Program-made: the position numbers and the translations under genes
The notes under the pieces: generated by a model
The model's database searches: none
What the model was told of the DNA's origin: nothing
The model's input: the letters and a program-made list of their open reading frames with translations, nothing else
Assembly: GCA_016179865.1 (NCBI GenBank)
Contig: JACPCJ010000096.1
Span: 1-37,500 of the forward strand
Source of the DNA: Actinomycetota bacterium
GTDB taxonomy: Bacteria > Actinomycetota > Acidimicrobiia > IMCC26256 > JACPCJ01
Direction: 5' to 3'
DNA: 37,500 bases
Shown here: in pieces, positions 6,857 to 10,644 of the stretch
Position numbering within the stretch: position 1 is the stretch's first letter
How the letters are laid out: the number at the start of each line of letters is the position of its first letter

Positions 6857-6886
6857 GACTCAACAGTCAACAAGCACAAGAAACGT

Positions 6887-7052
6887 CGTCCTCGGGAACG
6901 GGTGAAATTCCCAACCGGCGGTATCTGCTTGCGCCCGCAATCGAGCGAGAGCAGGAGCCCGCGAACCCACTGGCGGCCGGAGATCCGGTCACCCGTGGGC
7001 CGACCAGGTGCAAGGCCTGGGCCGACGGTGAGAGTCCGGATGGGAGAGGACG
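6887..7052 (+). ncRNA. FMN riboswitch (RFN element)
   Basis: Aptamer that binds flavin mononucleotide and turns off riboflavin genes. The closing stem P1 is a perfect 7-bp pair, CGTCCTC (6887-6893) with GAGGACG (7046-7052). Conserved RFN blocks are present in order: GGGTGAAATTCCCAACCGGC (6900-6919), GAGCCCGCGA (6955-6964), GATCCGGT (6982-6989), GCCGACGGTGAGAGTCCGGA (7021-7040), then TGGGAGAGGA. The variable arms between them are GC-rich. It directly precedes ribD, the first gene of the complete operon. Confidence 0.95.
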
Positions 7053-7103
7053 CGGCGGGGCGCCTCGCGCGCGGGAAGGTTCGCGCGTGACGACGCCTGC
7101 GGC

Positions 7104-7152
7104 CGTCCTGTCTCGGCTCCCGAAACGGCGTGAACGGCGTGAACGGGAGGAG
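7104..7152 (+). promoter_or_regulatory. Riboswitch expression platform and ribD ribosome site
   Basis: CTCCCG (7117-7122) is complementary to CGGGAG (7144-7149), which holds the ribD Shine-Dalgarno (GGGAGGAG, 7145-7152). The segment CGTCCT (7104-7109) plus CTCCC (7117-7121) is also complementary to the 3' edge of the aptamer (7042-7052): 11 pairs with a 7-nt bulge. The two foldings exclude each other, which fits translational control: FMN bound, ribosome site masked; FMN absent, site free. Confidence 0.6.
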
Positions 7153-7155
7153 CGG

Positions 7156-8265
7156 GTGGTCGAACACCCCGACGTCACCGCCATGCGTCGAGCCATCGAA
7201 CTCGGCGAGCGCGGCCGCCTCAGCCTGTCCGGCACCGACCCATGGGTCGGCTGCGTCCTCGTCGCCGACGGCCAGGTGGTGGGGGAGGGTGGTCACGACC
7301 GCGACGGCGGACCGCACGCGGAGGCCGTTGCACTGGAGCAGGCGGGGCGGCGGGCCCGCGGCTCAACCGCCTACGTCACCCTCGAGCCCTGCAACCACGA
7401 AGCTCGCACCCCGCCCTGCACCGAGGCCCTCATTTCGGCGGGAGTGGCATGCGTCGTCGTGGGCGTCACCGACGCCGACCCCCGGGTTCAGGGCGAGGGC
7501 GTCGACCGGCTGCGAAACGCGGGGATCACGGTCGAGGTCGGGGTCGCCGCCACCGAAGTCTTCGATTCCCTGCGTCCCTACCTCCACCACCGGGCCGCGG
7601 GCAGGCCCTGGTGCGTCCTCAAGGCGGCCGTCAGCCTCGACGGCCGTACGGCGGCGGTCGACGGAACGTCTCAGTGGATCACTGGCCCCGACGCCCGCGC
7701 CGACGGTCATCGGCTGCGAGCTCTTTCCGACGCCGTCGTCGTCGGCTCGGGCACCGCCCTTGCCGATCGGCCTGCCCTCACCGTCCGCGACTTCGACCCC
7801 CGACCCTCGGAGCCCCCGCTGCGCGTCCTCCTTGACGCGCGCGGACGCGTGCCTGCCGTGGGCCCGCTCTTCGAGGTCGACGTTGCCCCCACCCTCATCA
7901 TGACGACCGCCGCCGCCGACCCCGATGCCGTGCGGGAGTGGAAGGGCGCAGGGGCCGAAGTCGTCGAGCTGGAAGGCAGTCCCGCCGGGGGAGTGGACCT
8001 CGAATCAGCCCTCCGTGTGCTCCACGAACGCCGCGTGCTCCAGGCGCTGGTCGAGGGCGGAGCGGCGGTTCACGGCTCCCTCGCCGCCGCCGATCTCGCC
8101 GACGAGGTTGTCCTGTACGTGGGTGGGTCGGCACTGGGACCCGGGGGCCGGCCTCTCTTCGATGGCCTCTCGGTGCCCACCCTCAGCGACGCGCTCAGGT
8201 GGTCCCTCACCGACGTCGCCCGCGTCGGCACCGACGCCCGCATCACGTGGCGGCGGGCGGTCTGA
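7156..8265 (+). CDS. ribD: Bifunctional riboflavin deaminase/reductase
   Basis: Deaminates and then reduces the pyrimidine intermediate made from GTP in riboflavin synthesis. The N-terminal deaminase domain has the zinc site PHAEA (His54, Glu56) and EPCNHEARTPPC (Cys79, Cys88). The C-terminal reductase domain starts near residue 150 (LKAAVSLDGRTAA, then SQWITG). The GTG at 7156 is preferred because a strong GGGAGGAG lies just upstream and it gives 369 residues. The frame is open back to GTG 7087, but those codons fall in the riboswitch expression platform. The stop overlaps the ribE start (TGATG). Confidence 0.95.
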   Translation: MVEHPDVTAMRRAIELGERGRLSLSGTDPWVGCVLVADGQVVGEGGHDRDGGPHAEAVALEQAGRRARGSTAYVTLEPCNHEARTPPCTEALISAGVACVVVGVTDADPRVQGEGVDRLRNAGITVEVGVAATEVFDSLRPYLHHRAAGRPWCVLKAAVSLDGRTAAVDGTSQWITGPDARADGHRLRALSDAVVVGSGTALADRPALTVRDFDPRPSEPPLRVLLDARGRVPAVGPLFEVDVAPTLIMTTAAADPDAVREWKGAGAEVVELEGSPAGGVDLESALRVLHERRVLQALVEGGAAVHGSLAAADLADEVVLYVGGSALGPGGRPLFDGLSVPTLSDALRWSLTDVARVGTDARITWRRAV

Positions 8266-8870
8266 TGTTCACGGGGATCGTGGAGGAGCTCGGCCGGGTG
8301 CGGTCCGTCACCCCCAACGAAGGGGGGGCGCGCATCGAGATCGAAGGCCAAGCCACGCTCGCGGGCCTGGTGGTCGGCGGCTCGGTCGCGGTCAACGGAT
8401 GTTGCTTGACGGCGGTGGAGATCTCCGAAGGGGCGTTCTCCGCCGACGCCGTCTCCGAAACGCTCAGCCGCACATCACTGGGGCGCCTCGCCGCCGGCGA
8501 CGCCGTCAACATCGAGCGCCCCTTGCGCGCCGACGGGCGGCTCGACGGCCATATGGTCCAGGGCCACGTCGACGGCGTCGGGGTCCTGGAGGCTCGTGAG
8601 CACCTGCCCGATGGATCGTTCGCCGTGCGCGTCTCAGCGCCCCCCGCGCTCGTTCGCTACATCGTCGAGAAGGGCTCGATCGCCGTCGACGGCGTGAGTC
8701 TCACCGTTGTGGGCGTCGACGAGGAGGGTTTCAGTGTGGCCCTCATCCCACATACCGCGGAAGTCACGACGCTCGGCCACAAGCCGGTCGGCGCCGAGGT
8801 CAACCTGGAAGTCGATGTCGTCGCCAAGTACGTGGAGCGACTGACCCGTCCCTGGCGCGAAGACCGCTAG
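8265..8870 (+). CDS. ribE: Riboflavin synthase, alpha subunit
   Basis: Dismutates two 6,7-dimethyl-8-ribityllumazine molecules into riboflavin and a pyrimidine. The 201-residue protein has two lumazine-binding repeats: [10 protein letters not shown] with VAVNGCCLT (residues 1-50), then [19 protein letters not shown] and [11 protein letters not shown]. This is the usual tandem layout and length. The ATG shares one base with the ribD stop, so translation is coupled. Confidence 0.97.
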
Positions 8871-8890
8871 GGCGAAGAGAGGAGCACGCC

Positions 8891-10168
8891 GTGCCGTTCG
8901 CAAGCGCCGAAGCGGCGATCGAAGCCGTTCGCCGGGGCGACCTGGTCGTCGTGGCCGACGACGCCGACCGCGAAAACGAGGGCGACCTCATCATGGCGGC
9001 CGAGAAGGCGACCCCCGAGAAGATCGGATTCATGGTGCGCCACACGAGCGGCGTCATCTGCACGCCCTTGCCGGGGGAGCGGCTCGACGAGCTGCAGCTG
9101 CCGCTCATGGTCGCTGAGAACACGGAATCCATGCGGACCGCCTTCACCATCTCGGTAGACGCCCGCTCCGGCGTGACCACGGGAATCTCCGCCGCCGACC
9201 GTTCGGCCACCATCCAGGCCCTGATCGACCCTGCCACCCGGCCCGACGATCTGGCGCGCCCCGGTCACATCTTCCCGCTGCGGTATCGGGAGGGCGGGGT
9301 GCTCCGCCGAGCTGGACACACGGAGGCCTCCGTCGACCTCGCCCGGCTCGCCGGGCTCTATCCGGCGGGCGTGCTCTGCGAGATCGTCACCGACGATGGC
9401 ATGCCCGCGCGTCTTCCGCACCTGGAGCGGTTCGCGGAAGAGCACCACCTGGTGATGATCTCGATCGAGGACCTCATCCGGTATCGCCGCCAGCACGAGA
9501 AGCTCGTCCGCCGCATCGCCGAGGCCCGGATCCCAACCGCCTACGGCGCCTTCATCGCCTACGGCTACGAGTCGGTGCTGGAGGGCGACCACCACGTGGC
9601 CCTCGTGCGCGGCGAGGTGGCGGGGCGGCAGAACGTGCTCGTCCGCGTGCACTCCGAGTGTCTGACCGGCGACGTGTTCGGCTCACTGCGGTGTGACTGC
9701 GGCGTCCAGCTCGACGCCGCCCTGCGACAAATCGCCGAGGAGGGGTTCGGCGTCGTCGTCTACCTTCGGGGCCACGAGGGGCGAGGCATCGGCCTCTCAC
9801 ACAAGCTCCGCGCCTACAGCCTCCAAGACCAGGGCCGCGACACGGTCGAGGCCAACCTCGAACTCGGTTTCCCGGCCGACTCCCGGGAGTATGGAATTGG
9901 TGCCCAGATGCTTGCCGACCTCGGGATCACGACCATGCGGCTGATGACCAACAACCCGGCCAAGTACACCGGCCTCTCGGGATACGGGCTCGAGATCGTC
10001 GAGCGGGTGTCGATCCAGGCGCATCCCAACGACGAAAACATCACCTACCTGCGGGCCAAGCAGGCCAAGCTGGGTCACATGCTCGACCTTCCCTTTGAGG
10101 AAGCCCCGGTGCTGAGCGAAGAGACCGACGGTCCATCCCTGACCGACGGCACCGGTGGTGGTGCATGA
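8891..10168 (+). CDS. ribBA: DHBP synthase / GTP cyclohydrolase II fusion
   Basis: Supplies both precursors of riboflavin. The N-terminal DHBP synthase domain (1 to about 200) shows [12 protein letters not shown] (23-34) and [12 protein letters not shown] (140-151). The C-terminal GTP cyclohydrolase II domain (about 205-400) shows the zinc cysteines Cys257, Cys268 and Cys270 ([18 protein letters not shown]) and GHEGRGIGL (294-302). The GTG start follows AGAGGAG at good spacing. The stop overlaps the ribH start (ATGA). Both domains look intact. The last 25 residues are an acidic, Gly-rich tail. Confidence 0.97.
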
Positions 10169-10644
10169 AGGCGTCGCCCGAGTTCGGCGACGCCGACGGC
10201 GGCGGGCTGCGGATCGGCGTGGCAGCCGCGATGTTCAACGGCACCATCACCGAAGCGTTGCTCAAGTGGTGCCGCGAGGGCCTGCTCCACTCCGGCGTAT
10301 CCGACGCGGACATCATCGTCGAATGGGTGCCGGGTGCGTTCGAGCTGCCGTTGGCCGCACGGGTCTTCGCCATCGACGGCGGAGTCGACGCCGTGGTCTG
10401 CCTCGGGGCCGTGATCCGCGGCGACACGGCGCACTTTGAATACGTGGCGGGCGAGGCGGCTCGGGGCATCCAGGAGGTCGCGCTCGAAACCGGGGTCCCG
10501 GTGATGTTCGGTGTGCTGACGACCGACACCGTGGAGCAGGCTGAGGAGCGATCTCGCGATGACGAGACCAACAAGGGCTACGAGGCCGCACGCGGCGCCG
10601 TTCACATGGCCCGGGTGCTCGAGCGCATCCGGGGCGGGGCCTGA
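10165..10644 (+). CDS. ribH: 6,7-dimethyl-8-ribityllumazine synthase
   Basis: Condenses the DHBP-derived four-carbon unit with the ribitylamino-pyrimidine to form lumazine, the substrate of RibE. The 159-residue protein has [12 protein letters not shown] (54-65), [14 protein letters not shown] with the catalytic His90, and [15 protein letters not shown] near the C-terminus. It ends the riboflavin operon; no ribF or riboflavin transporter follows. The 4-nt overlap with ribBA couples their translation. Confidence 0.97.

Follow-up and report, generated by a model that had tools for sequence, protein, structure and literature searches.

Translational control by riboswitches is described by Barrick and Breaker as resting on mutually exclusive sequestor and antisequestor pairings, with direct occlusion as a further possibility (PMC2258182). 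For FMN riboswitches, the work in PMC7522473 describes an antiterminator strand reading TTCAGGGC and assigns to both P1 strands the role of anti-antiterminators. In descriptions of the E. coli ribB FMN riboswitch, FMN brings about a loop further downstream in which the ribosome site is concealed (PMC12453403, PMC9885008). In the account of the E. coli thiC TPP riboswitch given in PMC5234074, C7-G16 at the 5' end are protected in the way that pairing in a long-range anti-P1 stem would predict; this stem excludes P1 as well as the RBS-sequestering stem and is favored before the ribosome site has been transcribed.

The window (the whole stretch of DNA analyzed, 37,500 nucleotides) contains an RF00050 element that spans the full covariance model (1-138), scores 85.7 bits (gathering score, 66.2 bits), and is the sole match in the 70%-complete source genome. 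The riboflavin synthesis genes follow it in the order ribD-ribE-ribBA-ribH, and the element is probably an FMN riboswitch of standard type by which ribD translation is switched off, FMN being its likely ligand. Features are collected in Table 1. The aptamer is 172 nt long against a model of 138 positions, two of its arms carrying long inserts; its 3' edge, which includes the P1 3' strand, reads GGGAGAGGACG (7042-7052). The ribD frame remains open across 7087-7155, as far back as a GTG at 7087 that lies within the platform, and the start at 7156 is preferred because of its ribosome site (anti-SD duplex, -10.3 kcal/mol) and the protein alignment. At 7126-7143, CGGCGTGAA stands twice head-to-tail; the two copies make up the masking hairpin's loop, and the first has one of its ends in strand X.

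Table 1. Coordinates of the riboswitch, its platform strands and the downstream genes in the window
Feature	Position	Strand	Basis or remark
FMN riboswitch aptamer (RFN element)	6884-7055	+	RF00050 match, 85.7 bits, E 2.5e-18
5' switching strand (P1 5' strand and following joiner)	6883-6897	+	paired with 7118-7131 in the model without ligand
P1, 5' strand	6887-6893	+	pairs with 7046-7052 (7 bp in the family alignment)
P1, 3' strand	7046-7052	+	partner of 6887-6893 in the family alignment
Stable local hairpin between aptamer and switching strands	7065-7090	+	11-pair stem in minimum free energy folds
Platform strand Y	7104-7114	+	CGTCCT (copy of P1 5' strand) and TCTC; pairs with 7042-7052 in ligand-free models
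Masking hexamer CTCCCG	7117-7122	+	complement of 7144-7149
Platform strand X	7118-7131	+	complement of the aptamer 5' strand; 5' end overlaps the masking hexamer
ribD ribosome-binding site CGGGAGGAG	7144-7152	+	masked part CGGGAG 7144-7149
ribD, GTG start	7156-8265	+	TIGR00326, 304 bits; in-frame ORF
ribE, ribBA, ribH (rest of riboflavin operon)	8265-10644	+	NF006767, NF006803, TIGR00114

No intrinsic terminator was found on the + strand between 6700 and 7300, and translation is therefore the likely output. Transcription attenuation by an intrinsic terminator was rejected for this locus, none lying between aptamer and start codon, and so was direct occlusion, the ribosome site standing about 90 nt past P1.

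Folding was carried out on RNA from 6870 to seven 3' ends (7135-7240), both free and with chosen helices enforced. The preliminary description of this locus had correctly located CTCCCG (7117-7122), its target CGGGAG (7144-7149) and CGTCCT (7104-7109, and again at 6887-6892), and the complementarity it reported between the 3' aptamer edge, 7042-7052, and 7104-7109 plus 7117-7121 exists (6+5 pairs around a 7-nt bulge, 7110-7116). Its proposal that this helix holds the masking strand in the absence of FMN fared poorly, the helix having a probability of 0.00 and lying 8.1-9.6 kcal/mol above the free ensemble at all seven ends. The pairing of CGTCCT with the 3' strand, for which it saw competition with the P1 5' strand, does form in the models (7047-7052:7104-7109, ~0.92), but at all seven ends the 3' strand then continues into 7111-7114 (7042-7045:7111-7114, 0.88-0.98), leaving CTCCCG free. 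Although the pairs are present, and CGTCCT followed by CTCCC within 16 nt arose in 0/2000 shuffles (a post hoc test), this cost, the preference of the 3' strand for 7111-7114 and the behavior of the same strand in relatives (below) make capture of the mask by the 3' edge a very improbable wiring.

Calculation places strand X against the aptamer's other edge: 7118-7123 is paired with 6892-6897, and 7125-7131 with 6883-6889, in an anti-P1 helix of 13 pairs (-20.3 kcal/mol) that has a probability of 0.86-0.98 at ends 7135, 7143, 7150 and 7200. When its inner six pairs are enforced, the cost over the seven ends is 0.1-4.6 kcal/mol. The helix shares 6887-6889 and 6892-6893 with P1 and excludes it, so the mutual exclusion of P1 and a platform helix anticipated in the preliminary description holds, with a different helix. 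Judged from the window alone, there is a partner in the platform for each of the two P1 strands. A further duplex, 6884-6890 with 7089-7095, can be drawn, yet its ensemble probability is 0.00.

Masking of the ribosome site by 7117-7122 is strongly predicted within the window once P1 is enforced (7117-7122:7144-7149, probability 0.84-0.98 at the five ends that contain the site), and the models in this respect favor the logic by which FMN would turn the gene off. The mask also dominates without P1 enforced at ends 7158, 7175 and 7240 (0.96, 0.97, 0.67), and the free ensemble is thus not a clean ON state. When X was blocked in the window's platform taken by itself, the site did not become exposed (0.32 to 0.24).

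To estimate chance levels, 7056-7143 was dinucleotide-shuffled 2000 times. Of the shuffles, 10.75% contained a hexamer perfectly complementary to the ribosome site, and the mask taken alone is weakly above chance; a masking hexamer within an equally good 5'-strand complement occurred in 0.45%. The window's 5'-strand duplex is modestly rare (3.4%); over a longer platform the value is p = 0.22, and the best duplex there lies elsewhere. CGTCCT arose in 5.9% of the shuffles and a duplex with 7042-7052 of the real one's quality in 0.85%, whereas a 16-nt 3' segment set against the longer platform gave p = 0.385 (200 shuffles), so that the 3'-strand excess varies with the framing of the test. Such per-genome shuffles are weak because the platforms are very G+C-rich.

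Comparison among relatives was done at several depths. The source genome is the single member of its family among the genomes compared; the element is present in 34 of 58 genomes of the order and in 89 of 247 genomes of a class sample. The 89 aptamer loci from the class include one that stops just past the aptamer (L012) and one with no ribD match (L026). The main tests used 54 loci from 32 subfamilies (31 of the order's 34 genomes with a match among them) in which the chosen start lies at least 62 nt past GGATGGG; loci with a closer start, of direct-occlusion type or ambiguous, were left out, as were 80 further ribD loci, mostly Proteobacteria by title. Subfamily labels, letters added to family numbers, were assigned in this analysis from genus. 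In the swap test, each genome's strand was matched against the platform of that genome and against those from other subfamilies, and row and column means were removed; a first run, also with 54 loci, used a slightly different start rule, and the repeat run restricted platforms to the 75 nt before the start.

Under this test the 5' strand matches the platform of its own genome more closely than those of others (p = 0.0004 in both runs), and the 3' P1 strand shows no covariation with its own platform across the 54 loci (p = 0.73 and 0.74). When segments were slid along the aptamer, those that stood out were 2 of 26 in one scan and 2 of 21 in the other, both over the 5' strand, the remaining 19 segments of the 21-segment scan having |z| of at most 1.4. 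The 5'-strand result was also obtained in the order alone (p = 0.001), with loci grouped by 5'-strand type (p = 0.0002) or by family (p = 0.02), without four unusual loci (p = 0.004) and without the window (p = 0.0005); class members outside the order, taken by themselves, gave p = 0.10. In a version free of energies that scores the longest helix, the 5' strand again stood out (p = 0.0006-0.004), two controls gave p of 0.10 or more, and the 3' strand showed no excess (p = 0.10 or above; 0.24-0.92). Judged by these sequence comparisons, the homologous 5' segment covaries with its own platform in relatives; the platform helix conserved among homologues is thus with the 5' strand, and the 3'-strand helix of the preliminary description is not conserved. 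Its logic of switching seems right, and the results suggest that it placed the partner of the masking sequence on the wrong side of the aptamer.

Energies and longest helices separate own from swapped platforms, but counts of paired cells do not: own platforms gave 330.4 against 328.2 for swapped ones, with 121 of 300 swaps as high, and cells changed on both sides gave 91.6 against 86.0, with 44 of 300 as high. This lack of excess, together with the modest rarity of the window's 5' duplex and of its mask, is what one would expect if the platform held no working switch and its complementarities were by-products of high G+C. We regard that as improbable, since the comparisons of own with swapped platforms control for composition and still single out the 5' strand. 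In a phylum-wide set (48 of 49 loci usable), control segments were significant too.

Individual sequences illustrate the pattern. Platforms of the order commonly contain an ACCCCGnGGGC-like segment, the complement of the aptamer 5' strand GCCCTCGGGGT, and an altered 5' strand often comes with a matching platform; examples chosen by eye are L111 (TTGCAGGG with platform GCCCTGCA), L153 (CTCGCGGGGT with ACCCCGCG), L165 (TCGTGCGGG with CCCGCACGA) and L024, whose joiner is replaced by an insert (GGGATACAGCA and, in the platform, TGCTGTGTCTC). Four loci of the order (L024, L027, L018, L144) have an insert or altered joiner between P1 and the GGGTG motif, and the L024 insert makes 11 consecutive pairs with the platform, as if the switching strand had moved. 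Elsewhere in the class the arrangement differs. Many relatives (L125, L128, L156, L164 and similar, family f24) have a start codon about 20 nt past GGATGGG and a P1 3' strand reading AAGGAGGGC, so that the ribosome site seemingly lies inside P1, a case of direct occlusion with no separate platform. Terminator-type relatives in the phylum set (L176, L181, L188 and similar) carry CTTTCTCC in the terminator hairpin, complementing the aptamer 3' strand, and across the T-run loci of that set the 3'-strand fit reaches z = -2.7, unlike the window's order.

The mask itself gave no such signal in the tests made. In relatives, X was not seen to pair with the ribosome site better than other platform segments did (p = 0.83) or better with its own than with others' ribosome sites (p = 0.22), nor was blocking X seen to expose the site more than blocking other segments (p = 0.18; controls for 52 of the 54 loci). 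Having failed these three tests, X as a mask of the ribosome site throughout the order was set aside, and the masking step accordingly rests on the window's own sequence. With the 5'-strand helix conserved and the mask tests null, an anti-P1 helix acting mainly through Rho-dependent termination or mRNA decay has to be weighed; X need not then pair with the ribosome site, and Rho is used by E. coli ribB and thiC according to PMC5234074. The strength of the window's mask once P1 forms counts against this route, which we hold to be rather unlikely.

Taken as a whole, the observations are probably best explained by competition between P1 and the 5'-strand anti-P1/X helix, with the mask as the OFF step and ribD translation as the output. 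Without FMN, 6883-6897 would pair with X (7118-7131), abolishing P1 and keeping CTCCCG off the ribosome site, and ribD would be translated. FMN, if bound, may lock P1 (6887-6893:7046-7052) and so free X, whose 5' end would then pair with CGGGAG and block initiation; the mask may in this way serve as the OFF step. The 3' P1 strand, once released, probably finds a partner in this genome as well, at 7104-7114. The choice may be made early during transcription, before the ribosome site is made, which would reconcile the dominance of the mask at some 3' ends and would recall E. coli thiC as presented in PMC5234074.

A special case of this P1-versus-X competition would have Y working as well: without FMN, X would take the 5' and Y the 3' strand of P1, and with FMN, P1 would form and X would mask, translation again being the output. 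Such a four-strand exchange resembles the four-strand attenuator (1:2 versus 2:3 with 1:4). The X and Y helices, one nested inside the other, occur together in the free ensembles for ends 7135, 7143, 7150 and 7200, and the 3' duplex is rare in the shorter of the two shuffling framings given above. Y is, however, no general feature, the 3'-strand test being null in relatives, and the source genome stands alone in its family among those compared; we therefore treat the exchange as a tentative and somewhat doubtful extension. The adjacent platform copies of both P1 strands (Y 7104-7114, X 7118-7131) may be the one unusual feature of this locus; Y is not conserved. A literature search lacking most subscription journals returned no published example of an FMN riboswitch that captures both strands.

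The competition between P1 and the 5'-strand helix finds its nearest counterpart in the FMN antiterminator design. In the fetched relatives, the aptamer 5' segment immediately preceding the GGGTG motif reads TTCAGGGC, and the homologous position in the window is 6892-6899; the 5'-strand design is thus the usual arrangement, here lacking a terminator. As in the design described in PMC7522473, the same aptamer precedes the same operon, a 5' segment directly before GGGTGAAA pairs with the platform when ligand is absent, and P1 excludes that pairing; the differences are that no intrinsic terminator is present, that the output is probably translation, and that a partner exists for the 3' strand too (7104-7114). 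The wiring as corrected gives the conserved platform partner as the aptamer 5' strand, the published antiterminator strand, apparently serving translation here. More generally, a swap test with aptamer segments as controls offers a simple means of finding the switching strand in fast-changing platforms without alignment.

Other known systems are likened to this one by particular steps. The sequester loop that FMN induces over the ribosome site in E. coli ribB, as described, resembles the mask predicted here; ribB also terminates transcription, and the likeness is one of sequester logic, strands aside. E. coli thiC, in the account of PMC5234074, shares the long-range anti-P1 stem and differs in ligand and aptamer, and is thus analogous in its working and not a member of the same group. 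Direct translation attenuation, with the ribosome site inside the aptamer as set out in PMC2258182, is represented before ribD by class relatives such as L125 and L128, unlike the window.
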